Source of the DNA: Candidatus Cloacimonadota bacterium
GTDB lineage: Bacteria; Cloacimonadota; Cloacimonadia; JGIOTU-2; B8-G9
Length of the DNA: 14,805 nucleotides
Assembly (NCBI GenBank): GCA_003647765.1
Contig: QMNM01000007.1
Coordinates: 1-14,805 of the forward strand
Reading direction: 5' to 3'
Shown here: positions 1 to 7,275 of the stretch, piece by piece
Numbering within the stretch: position 1 is the stretch's first letter
Layout of the letters: each line of letters opens with the position of its first letter
Translations under genes and position numbers: made by a program
The notes under the pieces: generated by a model
What the model saw: the letters and a program-made list of their open reading frames with translations, nothing else
Database searches by the model: none
Told to the model about the DNA's origin: nothing

Positions 1-1140
1 AATCTAGCTTGGTTAGGATTTACTGCAAGAAAAGAACCGTATATACAAGGACTTTTTGATAAAGGAGGTCAATTTACAGAAGATGAGAAATTATATCTTC
101 TAAAATATCATTTTACAGTAATGGGAAAAACATTGAGTTTATACAAAAAGTTGTACAATGAGAATAAAATAGAATTGTGTACGAGTCCTTTTTATCATCC
201 TATTCTGCCATTATTGATAGATACTGATTGTGCAAAGAGAGCATTGCCAGATATTTCTTTACCAAAACATAGATTCAATTTCCCTATGGATGCAGAATTA
301 CAAATAAAAAAAGGTGTGGATTATTTTACTAAAATTATAGGTAAAGAGCCATCTGGATTTTGGCCATCAGAGGGGTCAGTATCGCCAGAGATAGCAGAAT
401 TGCTTACTAAATGTAATATTCATTGGTTCGCTTCTGATGAAGATGTGCTTGCTCATTCCACAGTAGATGGAAATTCCAATAAATATACAAATTATCGTCT
501 GGATTTTGGCAATAGTTCAATCAATGCAATATTTCGTGACAAAACTTTATCTGATTTGATAAGTTTCCATTATTCGCAAGTTCCGCCAGAACAAAGTGTA
601 AATGATTTCATTTCACATTTGGAAAATATTGCTCATAATATACAAGCTCAACAAGAGCCAAAATTGATATCTATAATATTAGATGGTGAGAATGTGTGGG
701 AGTATTTTCCTGACAGTGGCGAGAATTTCCTGCGTATGCTTTATCAGTCATTATCAGAGCATCCTTATCTTGAAACAATTGGGATAGGTGATTTTAATAG
801 ACGATTTTCTCCACAAAGGAGGATAGTCGTATTACATACTGGTTCATGGATAAACCATAATTTTCGTATATGGATTGGGGATGATGAGAAAAATCAGGCA
901 TGGGAACTTATGACAAAAGTCAGGAAAAGATTTCAAAGATACTTGAACAATAACACGCTATCAGAAAATACGATAGAAAAAATAAGAGAAGAGATTTTGA
1001 ATGCACAAGGAAGTGATTGGTTCTGGTGGTATGGTGAGCCGTTCTCTTCTGAAAATGATGAATTATTTGATCAGTTATTTCGTAATCATCTCACTATGGC
1101 TTATCAATTGATGAGACATTACAAATCTATGGCTGTGTAA
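1..1140 (+). CDS. Glycoside hydrolase family 57 protein, 5'-truncated by the window edge
   Basis: The reading frame is open from base 1 through the stop at 1138-1140, so the ATG at 121 is internal and about 379 C-terminal codons are present. GH57 enzymes are retaining alpha-glucan hydrolases or transferases (alpha-amylase, amylopullulanase, branching types). Visible family motifs are SPFYHPILPLL (about residues 62-72 of the visible part), WPSEGSVS with the expected nucleophile Glu near residue 124, ILDGENVWEYF with the expected acid/base Asp near 228, and HTGSWINHNFRIW near 279-291 followed by EKNQAWEL. The catalytic residues are assigned by family analogy. No signal peptide can be judged because the N-terminus is missing. 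The gene ends opposite the convergent pnp gene. Its likely role is in intracellular starch or glycogen-type glucan metabolism; the exact specificity cannot be read from this fragment. Confidence 0.9.
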   Translation, partial: NLAWLGFTARKEPYIQGLFDKGGQFTEDEKLYLLKYHFTVMGKTLSLYKKLYNENKIELCTSPFYHPILPLLIDTDCAKRALPDISLPKHRFNFPMDAELQIKKGVDYFTKIIGKEPSGFWPSEGSVSPEIAELLTKCNIHWFASDEDVLAHSTVDGNSNKYTNYRLDFGNSSINAIFRDKTLSDLISFHYSQVPPEQSVNDFISHLENIAHNIQAQQEPKLISIILDGENVWEYFPDSGENFLRMLYQSLSEHPYLETIGIGDFNRRFSPQRRIVVLHTGSWINHNFRIWIGDDEKNQAWELMTKVRKRFQRYLNNNTLSENTIEKIREEILNAQGSDWFWWYGEPFSSENDELFDQLFRNHLTMAYQLMRHYKSMAV

Positions 1141-1147
1141 AGTTAAT

Positions 1148-1190
1148 AAAGATTGAAAGATTATAAAGATTAAAAAGATTGAAAGATTAT
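1148..1190. repeat. AAAGATT short tandem array after the GH57 stop
   Basis: Five exact AAAGATT copies start at 1148, 1156, 1165, 1174 and 1182, giving a period of 8 to 9 bases. The array begins seven bases after the GH57 stop codon. The varying spacing means this is a degenerate microsatellite rather than a coding repeat. Confidence 0.75.
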
Positions 1191-1224
1191 TTTGATATAT
1201 ATTTTTTTTAGTTGATAGAGACAC

Positions 1225-1238
1225 ACGATTTTAATCGT
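1225..1238. repeat. Small palindrome in the GH57-pnp spacer
   Basis: ACGATT and AATCGT form perfect 6-bp arms around a TT centre, just after a T-rich stretch (about 1202-1209). It lies in the 220-bp spacer between two convergent genes, so it could help end transcription, but the stem is short. Confidence 0.35.
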
Positions 1239-1275
1239 TGGTATGAAAATCAAGAACTGATGTATTTTAATATTG

Positions 1276-1296
1276 TAAAACCGTTAAAAGGTTTTA
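1276..1296. terminator. Candidate bidirectional terminator hairpin between GH57 and pnp
   Basis: TAAAACC (1276-1282) and GGTTTTA (1290-1296) form a 7-bp stem around a 7-base loop. The arms end in A and T runs, so the transcript has a U-rich side in either direction. It sits between convergent genes, where a shared terminator is expected. The stem is AT-rich and weak. Confidence 0.4.
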
Positions 1297-1303
1297 ATTT
1301 ATC

Positions 1304-1350
1304 CTCTGTGCCTTCCGTGTCTCTGTGGCGAATTTACGCACTACGCCTTA
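1304..1350 (-). repeat. Dispersed CACAGAG/GCGTAGTGCGTAA repeat, minus-oriented copy downstream of pnp
   Basis: Read on the minus strand this stretch joins a GCGTAGTGCGTAA portion to a GCCACAGAGACACGGAAGG portion. Positions 1320-1346 are an exact 27-base reverse complement of 3687-3713, so two inverted copies flank the whole pnp gene. Related fragments occur near 4213-4247, 4328-4386, 11157-11180 and 11963-11990. It ends ten bases from the pnp stop codon. Confidence 0.8.
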
Positions 1351-1360
1351 TTTTACATTC

Positions 1361-3463
1361 TTACTTTCTTATGTCTTTCATACTAAGTTGTACTTTACCA
1401 TCATCATCTATACGAATGATTTTAACCATTACCTCATCTCCTTCTTTGACAACATCTCGTACATTTTTTGTCCGTTTTTGTTCTAGATTAGATACATGTA
1501 CAAGTCCTTCCTTTTTGGGCAGGAATTCTACAAAAGCACCAAAATCACGAACATTTTTTACTTTCCCTATATATGTTTTTCCAACTTTTGGTTCTTCTAT
1601 CAGCATTTCTATCATTTGCATTGCTTTTCTAATTGATGCTTTATTTGGAGATGCAATTTTAGTGGTTCCATCATCATCAATATCAATCTTTACATCTGTT
1701 TGCTCAATGATTTTTTTTATAGTTTTTCCAGATGGACCGATAACTTCGGCGATTTTTTCGTGTGGTATTTTAAGAGTTTCAATTCTTGGAGCGTAAGTGG
1801 AAATATCAGAGCGAGGCTGTGGTATTGTTTCTAATATTTTATTCAATATAAATAGGCGAGCATCTTTAGCCTTGTATAGTGCTTTCTTCATAATTTCAGT
1901 AGTAATACCATCTATTTTTATGTCCATTTGAAGAGCAGTAATACCATGTTTAGTCCCAGTAACCTTGAAATCCATATCACCATAATGGTCTTCCATCCCA
2001 ATAATATCAGTAAGGATTATATAGTTATCACCATCTTTAATCAAACCATTTGCTATTCCAGCAACTGGTTTTTTTATTGGTACTCCACCAGCCATTAAAG
2101 CCAAAGTTGCACTACACACAGTAGCCATTGATGATGAACCATTAGATTCTAATATTTCAGATACAATTCTGATAGTATAAGGGAATTTGTCCTGTTCTGG
2201 TAATATAGGCAATAAAGCTTTTTCTGCTAAATTGCCATGCCCTAGTTCTCTTCTGCCTGGCGCTCGTAAAAATCTTACTTCACCAACACTAAAAGGTGGG
2301 AAATTATAATGAAGATAGAATTGCTTTTTGTATTCCTCTTGCAAACCATCAACAATTTGTTCATCAGAGGTACTACCTAATGTTAAAGTGCCTAACGACT
2401 GTGTTTCGCCACGAGTAAATAATGAAGAGCCATGAGCTCTTGGAAGCACATCTATCTCACAAGAAATTTCTCGTATCTCATCAAGACCACGCGCATCAAC
2501 CCGTTTATGATCATACAAAAGATATCTCCTTATCAGTTCTCTTTTTATATTCTCATACGCGGATACAAGAAATTTTTCCTTTTCAGCATATTCCTCATCA
2601 GTAAGTGATGACTCATATTCAGTTAACAGCTCTTCTTTTATTTCATTAAATTTTTCATTTCGTGCTTTTTTATTCTTTATAAAATATGCTAAACTTAATT
2701 TATCCTGTATTTTTTCTTTAACTTCTGTAAGTAATTCTTCTTGTATAATTTCTTGTTCTATTTCCATTTTTTCTTGTGCGATACCTTCTGCAAATTTTTC
2801 CTGAAATTCAACAATATTTCTAATTACTGGCAGTGCTTTTTCAATAGCTTGCAGAATGGCATCTTCAGATACTTCTTTTGCAGATGCCTCAACCATAACT
2901 ACATCATTTTTAGTACCAGCAATATCTAACTCCAACTTTGACTTTTTCAATTGTGATACAGTAGGATTAATAACAAATTCGTTGTCAATAAGCCCAACTG
3001 TAACCCCTGCAATTGGTCCATTGAAAGGGATATCAGATATTGTCAATGCTGCTGATGCTGCTATCATTCCTATCATATCAGGACTGTTTTGTTCATCGTA
3101 GGATAATACAGTAACCACGATTTGGACTTCATTATGAAATCCATCTGGGAATAGTGGACGAAGTGGACGGTCAATTAAACGTGCGGATAATATTGCTTCT
3201 GTGGATGGTCTCGCTTCTCTTTTATAAAAGCCACCTGGAACTTTTCCAGCTGCATACATTTTTTCAACAAAATCAACAACTAATGGAAAATAATCAATAT
3301 CTTCACTAGGCTTCCTAGAAGCTGTAGCTGTAGCTAATACCATACTATCACCATATTTAGCAACTACCGAGGCATTAGCTTGTTTTGCCATTTTGCCTGT
3401 TTGTAGAACTAACTTTCTACCAGCTAATTCCATTTCCATTTCTTTGAATGGCTGATGTAACAT
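1361..3463 (-). CDS. pnp: Polyribonucleotide nucleotidyltransferase (PNPase)
   Basis: This 700-residue protein has the standard PNPase length and domain order. PNPase degrades RNA 3' to 5' by phosphorolysis and is a trimeric core component of RNA decay machinery. The first RNase PH domain contains GGFYKREARPSTEAILSARL near residues 77-96. The second contains FTRGETQSL and the active-site region GDMDFKVTGTKHG with its conserved acidic and Lys residues. A KH domain follows (about 555-615, loop GPSGKT), then a C-terminal S1 domain (about 625-698, RDFGAFVEFLP and GLVHVSNL). The ATG is preceded by a strong GGAGG site. It lies downstream of rpsO on the same strand, the classic arrangement, but the spacer is 288 bp and holds a repeat copy, so an internal promoter or a processing site in the spacer is plausible. 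Confidence 0.98.
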   Translation of the reverse strand: MLHQPFKEMEMELAGRKLVLQTGKMAKQANASVVAKYGDSMVLATATASRKPSEDIDYFPLVVDFVEKMYAAGKVPGGFYKREARPSTEAILSARLIDRPLRPLFPDGFHNEVQIVVTVLSYDEQNSPDMIGMIAASAALTISDIPFNGPIAGVTVGLIDNEFVINPTVSQLKKSKLELDIAGTKNDVVMVEASAKEVSEDAILQAIEKALPVIRNIVEFQEKFAEGIAQEKMEIEQEIIQEELLTEVKEKIQDKLSLAYFIKNKKARNEKFNEIKEELLTEYESSLTDEEYAEKEKFLVSAYENIKRELIRRYLLYDHKRVDARGLDEIREISCEIDVLPRAHGSSLFTRGETQSLGTLTLGSTSDEQIVDGLQEEYKKQFYLHYNFPPFSVGEVRFLRAPGRRELGHGNLAEKALLPILPEQDKFPYTIRIVSEILESNGSSSMATVCSATLALMAGGVPIKKPVAGIANGLIKDGDNYIILTDIIGMEDHYGDMDFKVTGTKHGITALQMDIKIDGITTEIMKKALYKAKDARLFILNKILETIPQPRSDISTYAPRIETLKIPHEKIAEVIGPSGKTIKKIIEQTDVKIDIDDDGTTKIASPNKASIRKAMQMIEMLIEEPKVGKTYIGKVKNVRDFGAFVEFLPKKEGLVHVSNLEQKRTKNVRDVVKEGDEVMVKIIRIDDDGKVQLSMKDIRK

Positions 3464-3609
3464 CTTTCCTCCAATATATTACAGGATAATGGCCAATAAC
3501 ATCTTAATAAATAGCAGTTAACTATCTCCTATTATGTGTTTCGGTATTTTTCTGTATGCTATCAGTCAAATATTATGATATATTTTTATAATCCTGATTT
3601 TTTATTATG

Positions 3610-3643
3610 CCTCTGACCAATAGAGAAATGCTGAAATCAGAGG
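3610..3643 (-). promoter_or_regulatory. Leader hairpin candidate in the rpsO-pnp spacer
   Basis: CCTCTGA (3610-3616) and TCAGAGG (3637-3643) are perfect 7-bp arms around a 20-base loop, about 150 bases upstream of the pnp start. In E. coli a hairpin in this spacer is cut by RNase III and allows PNPase to autoregulate. An equivalent role here is inference from position only. Confidence 0.3.
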
Positions 3644-3661
3644 ACATTCCTTAAATTTTTA

Positions 3662-3732
3662 GCCACAAAAACACACAAGGTGTAATGCGTAGTGCGTAAA
3701 TTCGCCACAGAGAACACAACGTAATGCGTAAA
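3662..3732 (+). repeat. Dispersed CACAGAG/GCGTAGTGCGTAA repeat copy in the rpsO-pnp spacer
   Basis: This stretch contains GCCACAAAAACACA (3662-3675; the same 14 bases recur at 11034-11047), then two heptads of the AATGCGT/AGTGCGT type, then a CGCCACAGAGA block and another AATGCGT. Its 27 bases at 3687-3713 match 1320-1346 exactly in inverse orientation. It starts directly beyond the rpsO stop codon and would be transcribed in the rpsO-pnp message. Confidence 0.8.
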
Positions 3733-3751
3733 ACACAAAAAATATCAGATA

Positions 3752-4021
3752 TTATCTACGAAGACCTAATTTTTTTATCAATTCACGATATCTATTAATG
3801 TCTTTATAACTAAGATAATTAAGCAATCTTCTTCTCTGACCAACTAGTTTCAATAATCCTCTTCTGGAATGATGATCTTTAGAATGTGCTTTCAGATGTT
3901 GTGTAATATTTCCGATTCTTTGGGTCAATAAAGCAATTTGCACTTCTGGTGAACCTGTATCCGTACTATGTAATCTAAATTCTTCCATAATAGGGGTTCT
4001 ATTTTTTTTGGTTATTGACAT
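3752..4021 (-). CDS. rpsO: 30S ribosomal protein S15
   Basis: The 89-residue product has the usual S15 length and sequence, including [16 protein letters not shown], the [16 protein letters not shown] helix region and RRRLLNYL. S15 binds the central domain of 16S rRNA early in 30S assembly and joins the inter-subunit bridge. The start is a good ATG with GGAGG five bases upstream. It precedes pnp on the same strand, as in many bacteria. The upstream 394 bp hold no gene but do hold a MITE-like element reaching within 30 bases of the start codon, so any S15 autoregulatory leader must lie inside or beside repeat sequence. There is no sign of truncation. Confidence 0.98.
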
Positions 4022-4047
4022 TTTACCTCCATAATAATTTATTGTAT

Positions 4048-4167
4048 TATGAGTTATGCAAAATAGGTGAAAACGGTGTTATTGCGAGGAACGAAATGAC
4101 AAAGCAATCTATAATGGTTTAATCATCATTCGCAATGACAGAAAAACTCTATTTCTCAAAACTCATA
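4048..4167. mobile_element. MITE-like repetitive element upstream of rpsO
   Basis: The ends form an imperfect 19-base inverted repeat: TATGAGTTATGCAAAATAG at 4048-4066 and CTATTTCTCAAAACTCATA at 4149-4167, matching at 15 of 19 positions. Inside is ATTGCGAGGAACGAAATGAC (4081-4100), AAAGCAATCT and a partial mirror, ATTCGCAATGACAG (4128-4141). From memory, GCGAGGAACGAA...AAGCAATCT sequences recur between genes in many unrelated bacterial genomes. There is no coding capacity. It could be a decayed non-autonomous element or a REP-like hairpin, and it overlaps the likely rpsO promoter region. Confidence 0.6.
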
Positions 4168-4212
4168 TTTATTATATTGTAAAAAATTAGCAATGAAGAA
4201 CACACAAGGCAT

Positions 4213-4247
4213 AGGGCGTAGTGCGTAATGCGTAGGGCGTAGGGCGT
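4213..4247 (+). repeat. GCGT heptad tandem array
   Basis: Five contiguous heptads read AGGGCGT, AGTGCGT, AATGCGT, AGGGCGT and AGGGCGT. The GCGT part is invariant and only positions 2 and 3 vary. The same heptad types occur in the repeat copies at 3684-3699 and, reversed, at 1333-1348. The array lies in the gene-free stretch 4022-4415. Confidence 0.8.
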
Positions 4248-4274
4248 AAAAATATACAAGAAATAATATACTGT

Positions 4275-4291
4275 GCTTGGATATGCCAAGC
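4275..4291. repeat. Short GCTTGG hairpin
   Basis: GCTTGG and CCAAGC form a perfect 6-bp stem around a 5-base loop, followed by AT-rich sequence on the plus strand. It may be a minor terminator or a repeat remnant in the spacer between the hydrolase and rpsO genes. Confidence 0.35.
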
Positions 4292-4327
4292 TATATTGTT
4301 TTCTATACTATATAGATAATTTTGGGT

Positions 4328-4386
4328 TAGCCACGAAGCACAAAGAGAGAAAGGAACAGAAAAAACTCTTTGTAACTCCGTGGCTA
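4328..4386 (-). terminator. Long imperfect hairpin built from repeat arms, downstream of the MBL-fold gene
   Basis: TAGCCACGAAGCACAAAGAG (4328-4347) pairs with the reverse complement of 4366-4386. Eight base pairs match at each end around a 4- or 5-base mismatched middle, with an 18-base A-rich loop. It begins about 30 bases after the hydrolase stop codon, so in the minus transcript it can act as a terminator or a 3'-end stabiliser. There is no long U run. The arms belong to the CCACRRAG...CACAAAGAG repeat family seen elsewhere in the window. Confidence 0.5.
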
Positions 4387-4415
4387 TGAGACAGTTTAAC
4401 TATTGTTCTGTAATG

Positions 4416-5063
4416 CTAAACTCTCTCTAAAATAATTACAGGTACATTCGCTAATTCTTTAAATAAAATGGCATCTTCTTCACTACCAACAACATCACCC
4501 CAGTGGAATGGAATGGCTAATTTGGGCTTGAATATATTAACGATCTTTGCGGCTTCTTTTGCTGTCATTGTATAAGTTCCACCTACTGGAACAAACGCAA
4601 TATCAATATGTTCAAGTGTTTTTAATTCTGGTACAGCATCTGTATCGCCAGTATGAAGAATTCTAATATCACCAACTGTTACTATATAACCTAACCAATT
4701 ATTATTTCGCGGATGATATTCTTTATTCAGATTATATGCAGGAATAGCTTTTATCTTAATATTATCGTATTCATTTTCATCTCCAGGATCCATAGTAATC
4801 ACAGGCATAGGCACCTCATTTTTTAATGAGGAAGGTATAATAACTTTTGTTGTATCATCTTTAATTTTATTTATATCTTCCAAAGAGAGATGGTCAAAAT
4901 GAGAGTGAGTAACAAGTATAAAATCTGCTTTTGGTTGATTAGATGGAACTTTCCATGGATCAATATAGATATTTTTACCTTGATATTGAATAAGAATAGA
5001 GCTCTGACAATACCATTTAATATTTTTTAGAAACTCTTGCAGATTATTATTAAGTGATCGCAT
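4416..5063 (-). CDS. Metallo-beta-lactamase-fold hydrolase (UlaG-like)
   Basis: The 215-residue protein carries the metal-binding signature of the MBL fold: THSHFDH (His53, His55, Asp57, His58), HTGDTD (His137, Asp140) and a late HWGD (His187). This spacing and length match the small UlaG-like or YtnP/L-ascorbate-lactonase-type family often annotated only as MBL fold metal-dependent hydrolase. The substrate cannot be told from sequence. There is no signal peptide, so it should be cytoplasmic. The ATG has an AAGGA site upstream and an extended -10 promoter lies about 25 bases away, so it is probably transcribed on its own. It is followed by a repeat-based hairpin. Confidence 0.9.
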   Translation of the reverse strand: MRSLNNNLQEFLKNIKWYCQSSILIQYQGKNIYIDPWKVPSNQPKADFILVTHSHFDHLSLEDINKIKDDTTKVIIPSSLKNEVPMPVITMDPGDENEYDNIKIKAIPAYNLNKEYHPRNNNWLGYIVTVGDIRILHTGDTDAVPELKTLEHIDIAFVPVGGTYTMTAKEAAKIVNIFKPKLAIPFHWGDVVGSEEDAILFKELANVPVIILERV

Positions 5064-5087
5064 AGTAAAAATTCCTTTCTATAATTT

Positions 5088-5096
5088 ATTATACCA
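5088..5096 (-). promoter_or_regulatory. Extended -10 promoter for the MBL-fold gene
   Basis: On the minus strand the bases read TGGTATAAT, a perfect extended -10 element (TGnTATAAT) placed so that the transcript would start about 18 to 20 bases before the hydrolase ATG. No good -35 hexamer sits at the usual distance, which an extended -10 can tolerate. Confidence 0.5.
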
Positions 5097-5175
5097 AAAG
5101 ATAATATCCATCTATTCATTTGTAAAGAAATTTATTTTTGTCGGATAAGCATTCCTAATCTGTGCAGTAAGGACA

Positions 5176-5262
5176 TTACTTAAGTTTAGGAATATCAACA
5201 GGCAAGCCAACTCTCATAAAAAATCTGGCAAAAGCTTGAGATAAATGCTCGCTATAAGCTTC
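5176..5262 (-). pseudogene. Orphan C-terminal coding fragment downstream of the nuclease gene
   Basis: One minus-strand frame is open for 28 codons between a TGA and a TAA and reads like the end of a protein: EAYSEHLSQAFARFFMRVGL followed by PVDIPKLK and a stop. Composition and charge pattern are protein-like, unlike the AT-rich spacers nearby. There is no usable start with a ribosome site (one internal ATG would give 13 residues). I read it as the 3' remnant of a gene whose body was lost, perhaps when the restriction-modification pair arrived. I do not recognise the parent family, and a chance open frame cannot be excluded. Confidence 0.4.
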
Positions 5263-5279
5263 TCAATTGGACAGAAGAA

Positions 5280-6005
5280 TCATTCTAATTTATCAAATTC
5301 ATTTAAAAATTCTTTCCATTTACCAAAGTCTCTTGCACTAAAATGTTGCCTATCTTGATCTTTGAAAAAGGAAATACCTTTTAAAGAATCACCCATAACT
5401 CTTTTAAAATCATTTACAGACATAACTAAAAAGTGAGGTTTGTCGTCATCATCAATCAAACACCAAATATAAAAATGATATTTATCTTTGATTAAATCTC
5501 GTGGTTTCATATCTACCGCATAAGTATTTTTTGATTTTCCATTCTTATATTCAATTCTTGAACTTTTTACCTGAATTGTGCGAAATTTTGTTACATAATT
5601 TTTACTGCCACATTTACAAGAATGGTCAATCATTTCTATTTCTCCACCACATATATCACAAGTGGGGCGATTAATCAAATTTTTACTGCCACATTTCTCG
5701 CATTTTCTTTTATTACCGACCATTTCATATTTACAATTAGCACATATTTTTTTAGCAATTATTTTATTTTTCTGAGTCTTGGAAAAATCTTTACCACATT
5801 TTTTACATACTAATACAGGTGTTAAATTCCAGTTTTTCCCACAATCTTCGCAAACATGTTTGTGAATTATAAGGTCTATATATTCATCGTAAACAGGATT
5901 ATATACATTCCAACCATATTTAGATAATTCAAAAGAGACCAAAAATTCCCCATAACGAGAAAAATGTCTTGCACTCAAATCAGTTGTAGTTCTCTTATTG
6001 TTCAT
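5280..6005 (-). CDS. Predicted type II restriction endonuclease, PD-(D/E)XK fold with three inserted zinc ribbons
   Basis: The 241-residue protein starts GEFLVSFELSKYGWNVYNPV (Glu20), then YDEYIDLII (Asp44), and resumes with TIQVKSSR (Gln145, Lys147). This resembles the E...D...QxK core of the PD-(D/E)XK endonucleases related to group I intron and type II enzymes. About 100 residues between Asp44 and the QVK motif hold three four-cysteine ribbons: C52/C55/C67/C70, C88/C91/C102/C105 and C116/C119/C130/C132. The last pair is CxC rather than CxxC. The ATG at 6005 leaves one base after the methyltransferase stop. A TTG at 6026 would add seven residues by overlapping that gene, and I consider it less likely. 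Pairing with the methyltransferase supports a restriction role; the recognition site is unknown. Confidence 0.75.
   Translation of the reverse strand: MNNKRTTTDLSARHFSRYGEFLVSFELSKYGWNVYNPVYDEYIDLIIHKHVCEDCGKNWNLTPVLVCKKCGKDFSKTQKNKIIAKKICANCKYEMVGNKRKCEKCGSKNLINRPTCDICGGEIEMIDHSCKCGSKNYVTKFRTIQVKSSRIEYKNGKSKNTYAVDMKPRDLIKDKYHFYIWCLIDDDDKPHFLVMSVNDFKRVMGDSLKGISFFKDQDRQHFSARDFGKWKEFLNEFDKLE
5597..5696. repeat. In-frame direct repeat inside the nuclease zinc-ribbon region
   Basis: AATTTTTACTGCCACATTT occurs exactly at 5597-5615 and 5678-5696. The offset is 81 bases, or 27 codons, so both copies encode the same piece (KCGSKN) in frame. This suggests that at least one zinc ribbon arose by tandem duplication inside this gene. 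Confidence 0.75.
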
Positions 6006-6006
6006 A

Positions 6007-7242
6007 TCAATTTTCACTATAATCAAACTCTGATATATCTATAACTTTATTATTAAGCAAATCAGGTTGAAAGTTCTTTGCTATATTTTTCAAACTCGCT
6101 TCACGAAACATCTTTTTATTTATCTCAATCCCGATACCAATTCTATTTAATCTTTTGGCTACAATTACAGAAGTAAAACTTCCCCCAAAAGGATCTAGAA
6201 CCTTTTCGCCTTTATAGCTAAACATCCTTACTGCAAATTCTGGTATTTCTTCTGGAAATGGAGCAGTATGTCCAAGAACATTTTTACCTTTACTATTTAT
6301 TTTTATAACCGGAGAAAATTTCACAATATCTCTACGCCATTTTTTGATAAATTCTTTTGGGATTTCATGCTCTTTTGATTGATGAGATTGTGTCATTATT
6401 GTCTTTAATGAGAACCTTTTGCCACGATTACTTTTACTTCTTTGAAAGCAATCTAAATTTTTACATTCCCAACTCATTAAACCGATTTCCGATTGTGTGT
6501 TTCCATTAACTTTCAGTGTCCCACAAATTGGGCAAGGATAACGAGTTCTATCTAATCTATGCTTATGAAAAATCAAAATATGTTCATAACAATTTGCTGG
6601 ATATTGATAAAATGGATATGGTTTGTTGCCGTGTTTATGCCTTTCTGTTTGGACTTCGCCTTTATCCCAGATAAAATCATCAACAAAAGTAAAACCTTCT
6701 TCCTCAAAAATCTTTGTAAAATATGAGCCAAGAGGTAATCTTCTTTTGCCCCAAACAGATTTGGTTGTTAAATTATCATTATCAAAAACATCACCAACAT
6801 TAAAAACAAATACACGGTGATTATCTAATACTCTGTAAGATTCCCGAATGATTTTACGCATATCTTCTAAATACTCATTTAGATTTTTCCATTGAGAGTA
6901 ATCACGGGCATTATAATATGGTGGGGAAGTAACCATAATATGAATTGATTCAGATTTCATTCCTTGCAGAACTTTTAAACAATCCCCCCAGATTATTTTT
7001 ATTCCATCATCTTCTTTCTCTATAAACTTTGATAATTTGTCATTGACACATTGATATTGTCTTTGATAATCTTCTTTAACGAATCGTATGTAAGTTTCAG
7101 AAAAATTTTTTATTATTTCATTACGGTTCTCTAATTTTCTCAAACATTCAATATCTTTTAGGAATTCATCTAAACGGACTTTAGAAAAAGTTTCCAATAA
7201 ATATGGTTCACTTATTTCTAAAATTTTATCTATGTAATGCAT
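6007..7242 (-). CDS. Site-specific DNA methyltransferase, beta class, probably N4-cytosine
   Basis: The 411-residue protein has catalytic motif IV TSPPYYNARDY (residues 105-115) before the AdoMet-binding motif VLDPFGGSFTS (348-358), which is the beta-class order. The SPPY form is typical of N4-cytosine enzymes, though some N6-adenine enzymes carry it. An 80-residue helical N-terminus precedes the domain. Between the motifs, in the likely target-recognition region, lies a Cys4 ribbon (C237, C240, C260, C265). The open frame reaches a TTG at 7332, but that extension reads through a perfect hairpin (7276-7318), so I take the ATG at 7242. The nuclease gene follows after one base, so the pair forms a compact operon. 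Its job would be to protect host DNA from the partner nuclease. Confidence 0.9.
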   Translation of the reverse strand: MHYIDKILEISEPYLLETFSKVRLDEFLKDIECLRKLENRNEIIKNFSETYIRFVKEDYQRQYQCVNDKLSKFIEKEDDGIKIIWGDCLKVLQGMKSESIHIMVTSPPYYNARDYSQWKNLNEYLEDMRKIIRESYRVLDNHRVFVFNVGDVFDNDNLTTKSVWGKRRLPLGSYFTKIFEEEGFTFVDDFIWDKGEVQTERHKHGNKPYPFYQYPANCYEHILIFHKHRLDRTRYPCPICGTLKVNGNTQSEIGLMSWECKNLDCFQRSKSNRGKRFSLKTIMTQSHQSKEHEIPKEFIKKWRRDIVKFSPVIKINSKGKNVLGHTAPFPEEIPEFAVRMFSYKGEKVLDPFGGSFTSVIVAKRLNRIGIGIEINKKMFREASLKNIAKNFQPDLLNNKVIDISEFDYSEN

Positions 7243-7275
7243 ACTTTTGTCATAAATGATTATCGTAAGAAACCT

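Follow-up and report, generated by a model that had tools for sequence, protein, structure and literature searches.

A nuclease gene in the window, the whole stretch of 14,805 nt of Candidatus Cloacimonadota DNA that we analyzed, can be assigned with good confidence to a new family of Type II restriction enzymes, in which a PD-(D/E)XK core with an E-D-QxK active site would be split by zinc ribbons, the nuclease is paired with a DNA methyltransferase (MTase), and the pair appears to have spread horizontally. This assignment was made from sequence, and the evidence for each of its parts is given below.

Layout of the putative nuclease and its insert

The putative Type II restriction endonuclease is a 241-aa protein in which an insert of three ribbons interrupts what appears to be a PD-(D/E)XK-type core. 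It is encoded on the minus strand at 5280..6005, with its ATG at 6003-6005 and its stop codon at 5280-5282, and is present in one copy in the window genome. The first-pass annotation had claimed an active site made up of Glu20, Asp44, and QVK (145-147), with about 100 residues and twelve cysteines in three Cys4 sets lying between Asp44 and QVK. The translation agrees on both points: all of the named residues are present, and the gap between Asp44 and Gln145 is exactly 100 residues with 12 Cys inside. Glu20, a putative metal ligand in the first helix (5946..5948, minus strand), is invariant in all relatives of the nuclease, including the single-ribbon forms described below. The putative catalytic Asp44 (5874..5876, minus strand) and the putative QxK catalytic half-motif Gln145-Val146-Lys147 (5565..5573, minus strand) are also invariant and align with the Asp and QVK of a PDDEXK_5 protein. 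The C-terminus follows directly after the core, with no extra domain beyond it.

The insert (residues 51-135; 5601..5855, minus strand) carries its twelve cysteines in three Cys4 sets, each of which has the spacing of a zinc ribbon and is invariant in eight orthologues. These are ribbon 1 (C52/C55/C67/C70; 5796..5852, minus strand), ribbon 2 (C88/C91/C102/C105; 5691..5744, minus strand), and ribbon 3 (C116/C119/C130/C132; 5610..5660, minus strand), the last of which closes with a CxC pair (C130/C132) rather than CxxC. The thirteenth cysteine of the protein, C182, lies outside the insert. Against Pfam, the intact nuclease gave only weak matches to DZR_2 and related zinc ribbons, below the cut-off, and Foldseek indicated a resemblance of the ribbon 2 model to the ribbons of eL40 and reverse gyrase that was a local fit only, with weak E-values. 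We infer that the Cys4 sets bind zinc. The three-ribbon inserts have a net charge of +6 to +13, and it is on this charge and the position of the insert that the DNA-reading arm suggested by the first-pass annotation may be considered plausible. The inserts of the single-ribbon relatives have net charges of -2 and +1; as these are not basic, DNA contact is perhaps not general across the family.

The excised core resembles PD-(D/E)XK nucleases

No nuclease family in Pfam matched the intact protein. When the insert was excised (residues 51-135, with boundaries set by our own choice), matches to nuclease profiles returned. The excised core matched PDDEXK_5 (PF11645) with an E-value of 0.0021 and 18.5 bits; as this score lies under the Pfam curated cut-off of 26.1, the protein is likely a relative of PDDEXK_5 and is not filed here as a member. 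The core also matched phrog_5018 (E 1.3e-10 over residues 17-133, compared with 4e-7 for the intact protein), and 7/7 excised cores tested did the same. A match to phrog_5018, a family with no assigned function, does not by itself prove a nuclease. In hhalign, the core alignment was paired with L126, a PDDEXK_5 protein (PF11645 E 5.8e-11) whose annotation is that of an intron-associated nuclease, at a Prob of 87.6 with Glu, Asp, and QVK in register, the E-value of this comparison being that of one pair and not of a database. The step from Asp to Gln is 13 residues in L126 vs. 101 in the window nuclease. The two single-ribbon sequences gave a weak alignment with L126 (Prob 2.5).

A control scan shifted an 85-residue deletion along the nuclease in steps of five positions, and each shortened sequence was compared with a profile built from the two single-ribbon relatives minus their inserts. 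The top score was obtained with removal of 51-140, at 36 bits vs. 19.8 bits for the intact nuclease. Structure prediction was less informative: the AlphaFold model of the window nuclease had a mean pLDDT of 48.8, with the core below 50 and the ribbons alone modeled with some confidence, and that of a single-ribbon relative had a pLDDT of 35.0, with low-confidence secondary structure that fits the PD-(D/E)XK order. Two Foldseek searches returned no nuclease match, and the excised-core profile matched no nuclease in the PDB. The earlier proposal of a PD-(D/E)XK core split by the ribbons thus draws its support from the excised-core profiles, the hhalign register, and the excision scan, and drew none from the predicted structures. 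Together, these comparisons suggest a core of PD-(D/E)XK type in which the insert separates the Asp strand from the QxK strand. From the match to the excised core, phrog_5018 is probably a PD-(D/E)XK nuclease family as well. The insert appears to mask the nuclease core from profile searches, such that enzymes of this kind would be missed by automatic annotation.

Conservation and spread of the nuclease

A scan of genome contigs with the nuclease recovered six full-length orthologues, in metagenome-assembled genomes (MAGs) of WOR-3, Nealsonbacteria, Hatepunaea, Nomurabacteria, Calditrichaeota, and Bacteroidetes, and a genome of the same order (L010, 76% identical) added a seventh. The seven are 74-88% identical to the window protein, and such close similarity between distant phyla suggests that the genes were transferred horizontally, as one module. 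All twelve insert cysteines as well as E20, D44, and QVK are invariant across the eight sequences (window plus seven orthologues), and 18/71 non-Cys columns of the insert are invariant. The difference between Cys and other insert columns (hypergeometric P 9e-7) is descriptive only, Cys being well conserved generally. E20, D44, and Q145/K147, in which Q replaces the usual D/E, are invariant in 10/10 aligned nucleases, down to 28-30% identity. Whether the insertion is conserved had been left by the first-pass annotation to a family search, and it is: the insertion is kept in all seven orthologues and occurs at the same site in two diverged relatives.

Calculated from pairs without dS saturation, dN/dS was about 0.11 for the whole gene, with 0.05 for the N-terminal core, 0.18 for the insert, and 0.10 for the C-terminal part; these values indicate that the gene is under purifying selection. 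Mean pairwise identity was 67% in the insert vs. 90% and 77% in the core parts. In plasmid and phage collections, neither the full nuclease nor a single-ribbon relative found a match, and the excised core gave non-significant matches only. Scans of viral contigs with the nuclease alignment, the window MTase, or the nuclease of L014 (one of the single-ribbon loci) found no match, and the scan with the excised-core alignment found L124. A weak match at G058/L011 (E 2e-4) contains three stops and was taken as a chance resemblance between zinc ribbons.

The nuclease is paired with a methyltransferase

Upstream on the same strand lies the partner DNA methyltransferase (6007..7242, minus strand; PF01555, N6/N4 class, SPPY motif), with its likely ATG at 7242. 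The MTase ends 1 nt from the ATG of the nuclease, which makes the nuclease the second gene of the pair. The same arrangement, with the MTase directly upstream and overlapping or within about 10 nt, was found in the window, in 7/7 orthologues, and in both single-ribbon relatives. The MTase contains a Cys set of the form CxxC...C-x4-C (6448..6534, minus strand), a possible zinc ribbon, in which C239/C242/C262/C267 (numbering counted from position 7248) are invariant in the MTase alignment. Both members of the pair therefore carry zinc-ribbon-like motifs; the MTase Cys4 set is seemingly absent from the Staphylococcus saprophyticus relative (L040).

A Methanophagales MAG has an intact MTase and a nuclease reduced to a C-terminal remnant of 29 residues; the nuclease gene appears to have been interrupted by genes for a DUF6996/6997/7226 protein and a D12-class MTase (L017 538-2685 and L009 2693-5087), so that one restriction-modification (R-M) system appears to have been invaded by another. 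A 430-aa ORF in L009 proved to be the DUF6996/6997/7226 protein and is unrelated. An ORF of about 790-866 aa (L043 407-2776) appears to be an MTase fusion that was duplicated or rearranged, in which the N-terminal half keeps the MTase zinc-ribbon segment and the C-terminal half has the catalytic motifs without the segment. A Staphylococcus Sepunavirus phage encodes a solitary MTase that is 46% identical to that of the window and is located beside further MTase genes (L035 2974-3903), possibly for anti-restriction.

Single-ribbon relatives share the insertion point

Two loci carry more diverged forms of the pair: L014, in a genome that belongs to the window genome's class, and the IMG/VR contig L124. 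Their MTases are 67 and 59% identical to the window MTase, and their nucleases, encoded 3' of the MTase, have 209 and 217 residues, respectively. The two nucleases share 52% identity with each other and 28-30% with the window nuclease. Both keep the G-E, D, and QVK residues; their inserts, located where the window nuclease has its ribbons, hold a single CxxC...CxxC set, and 51-56 residues lie between Asp and Gln. The same insertion point in diverged relatives indicates that the insertion site is a trait of the family and that the number of ribbons is variable. In L124, the single-ribbon system (477-5483) is flanked by an AbiJ_NTD4/DUF7014 gene on one side and a GmrSD-type gene on the other, neighbors typical of the small defense islands that this setting resembles.

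A link to BstXI-family enzymes

MTases of the same subfamily were also found beside BstXI-family (PF09552) HNH nucleases at three loci. In L036 (Patescibacteria), the MTase is 66% identical to that of the window and lies tail to tail with the PF09552 nuclease; in L040, a 2.3-kb S. saprophyticus plasmid, it is 31% identical and also tail to tail; and in L044, a viral contig, it is 67% identical and on the same strand as the nuclease. The neighbors at all three loci match the RE_BstXI profile (PF09552), and the window nuclease does not. L040 (1-2305) holds little beyond the BstXI-family nuclease and the convergent MTase, and no replication gene is annotated on it. In L044 (3578-5977), phage-like genes surround what appears to be a complete R-M pair, the MTase followed by the BstXI-family nuclease.

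BstXI cuts CCAN6TGG (PMC4335341) and is itself accompanied by a Type I-like MTase (PMC4335341, PMC3874165). Since window-type MTases take this place at the other loci, BstXI-type nucleases do swap MTase partners. Because the same MTase subfamily pairs with BstXI-family nucleases, a site of the type CCA-Nn-TGG can be guessed as the target of the window pair, a tentative proposal toward which we remain more doubtful than confident. The MTase trees were poorly resolved and did not separate the order in which the HNH and PD-(D/E)XK partners arose.

Comparison with known systems

The window nuclease shares the pattern and order E - D - QxK with PDDEXK_5, the family of I-Ssp6803I-type intron homing endonucleases. 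Its members are intron-borne and run straight from Asp to QxK, whereas the window nuclease has its 100 residues in between and is adjacent to an MTase. The phage family phrog_5018, of 134 residues and with no assigned function, matches the excised core end to end, and its length implies that it has no insert. BstXI-family enzymes are HNH-like and have no sequence similarity to the window nuclease, although they share the MTase subfamily and perhaps a related target.

The closest structural likeness is to R.DpnI (4esj), a PD-(D/E)XK enzyme whose Cys4 zinc site (PMC4081073) involves the hairpin from Asp to (D/E)XK; in the DpnI sequence, Cys56 and Cys59 lie between the catalytic residues Asp53 and Glu64 (active site: PMC4117772). 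Unlike the window nuclease, DpnI has one ribbon, the first half of which (Cys34/37) precedes the Asp, has ELK in place of QVK, carries a winged-helix domain, and needs methylated DNA. The window nuclease did not match DpnI in a search of PDB sequences. Large insertions are common in the PD-(D/E)XK fold (PMC1189080), and a search of the open-licence literature turned up no account of ribbons arrayed within a PD-(D/E)XK active-site hairpin, although an annotated, unpublished member may exist in REBASE. The first-pass annotation had offered the layout as one without a known counterpart; this holds for three ribbons in series, and it needs amending for zinc-site cysteines in the hairpin, which are known from DpnI. 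The three-ribbon layout thus appears to be new, with DpnI as a partial and closest structural precedent.

Discussion

By analogy with the PD-(D/E)XK superfamily in general, Mg2+ would be held by E20 and D44 in the window nuclease, and Q145 and K147 would complete the active site. The upstream MTase would protect the sites of the host by adenine-N6 or cytosine-N4 methylation, and the nuclease, presumably sharing the specificity of the MTase, would cut the same sites when unmethylated. The core would be of the intron-endonuclease type (PDDEXK_5-like), with a hairpin between Asp and QxK that bears three Cys4 ribbons here and one in the sister clade. The ribbons would probably project from the catalytic face and may touch DNA near the cut site.

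The role of the ribbons is where a different view carries the most weight. They may be structural, bracing the active-site hairpin or mediating dimerization, with other loops reading the bases, and we consider this a serious possibility at somewhat less than even chance; it concerns the ribbons and not the assignment as a restriction enzyme. Zinc sites in HNH restriction enzymes have been reported as structural (PMC4081073), the insert evolves faster than the core, the number of ribbons varies (one to three) among pairs that share one MTase subfamily, and single-ribbon inserts are not basic. Three-ribbon inserts, however, are always basic, and the insert sits at the active-site hairpin, near the path that DNA must take. 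A bolder version of DNA contact would make the hairpin an evolvable socket for ribbons, which form a basic DNA-reading arm beside the cut site. The length or spacing of the target would then depend in part on how many ribbons there are, and one MTase subfamily would be served in some hosts by the split enzyme and in others by a BstXI-type HNH enzyme, two unrelated nucleases converging on a CCA-Nn-TGG-type target; we regard this version as speculative and rather unlikely.

Other readings would change what the protein does, and each must contend with the MTase or with the conserved residues. The gene beside the MTase might encode a repair enzyme similar to Vsr, or a nuclease of homing type, rather than a restriction enzyme, as the core resembles the intron-type PDDEXK_5 nucleases and Vsr itself has both a Cys4 zinc site and a PD-(D/E)XK-like fold (PMC4081073); this is improbable, as an MTase of the N6_N4 class (PF01555) yields no T:G mismatches for repair, other members of the MTase subfamily have BstXI-family restriction enzymes as partners, and we saw no intron or homing context. 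The absence of a significant nuclease match for the intact protein and the poor AlphaFold models could be taken to mean that the protein is catalytically dead or a regulatory zinc protein in which E20, D44, and QVK are a chance resemblance. That these residues are invariant down to 28-30% identity, that the excised core as a whole matches nuclease profiles, and that the gene is under purifying selection render this very improbable. DpnI, with its own zinc cysteines in the active-site hairpin, suggests, as another reading, a modification-dependent (Type IV/IIM) enzyme with methylated DNA as its substrate, yet the nuclease always adjoins an MTase in the loci examined, and a methylation-dependent cutter would be self-destructive there unless the mark differed from the target; we give this reading next to no credence.

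We therefore retain the reading of an MTase-paired Type II restriction enzyme with a core split by zinc ribbons. As relatives show both a one-ribbon state and a swap of nucleases at the same MTase, the origin of the layout is open to test. If the reading is correct, the active-site hairpin itself bears a DNA-binding or scaffold module in a family of restriction enzymes. Such a ribbon-bearing hairpin would be a natural coupling of recognition and cleavage within 241 residues, and the split nuclease may offer a template for compact engineered nucleases.
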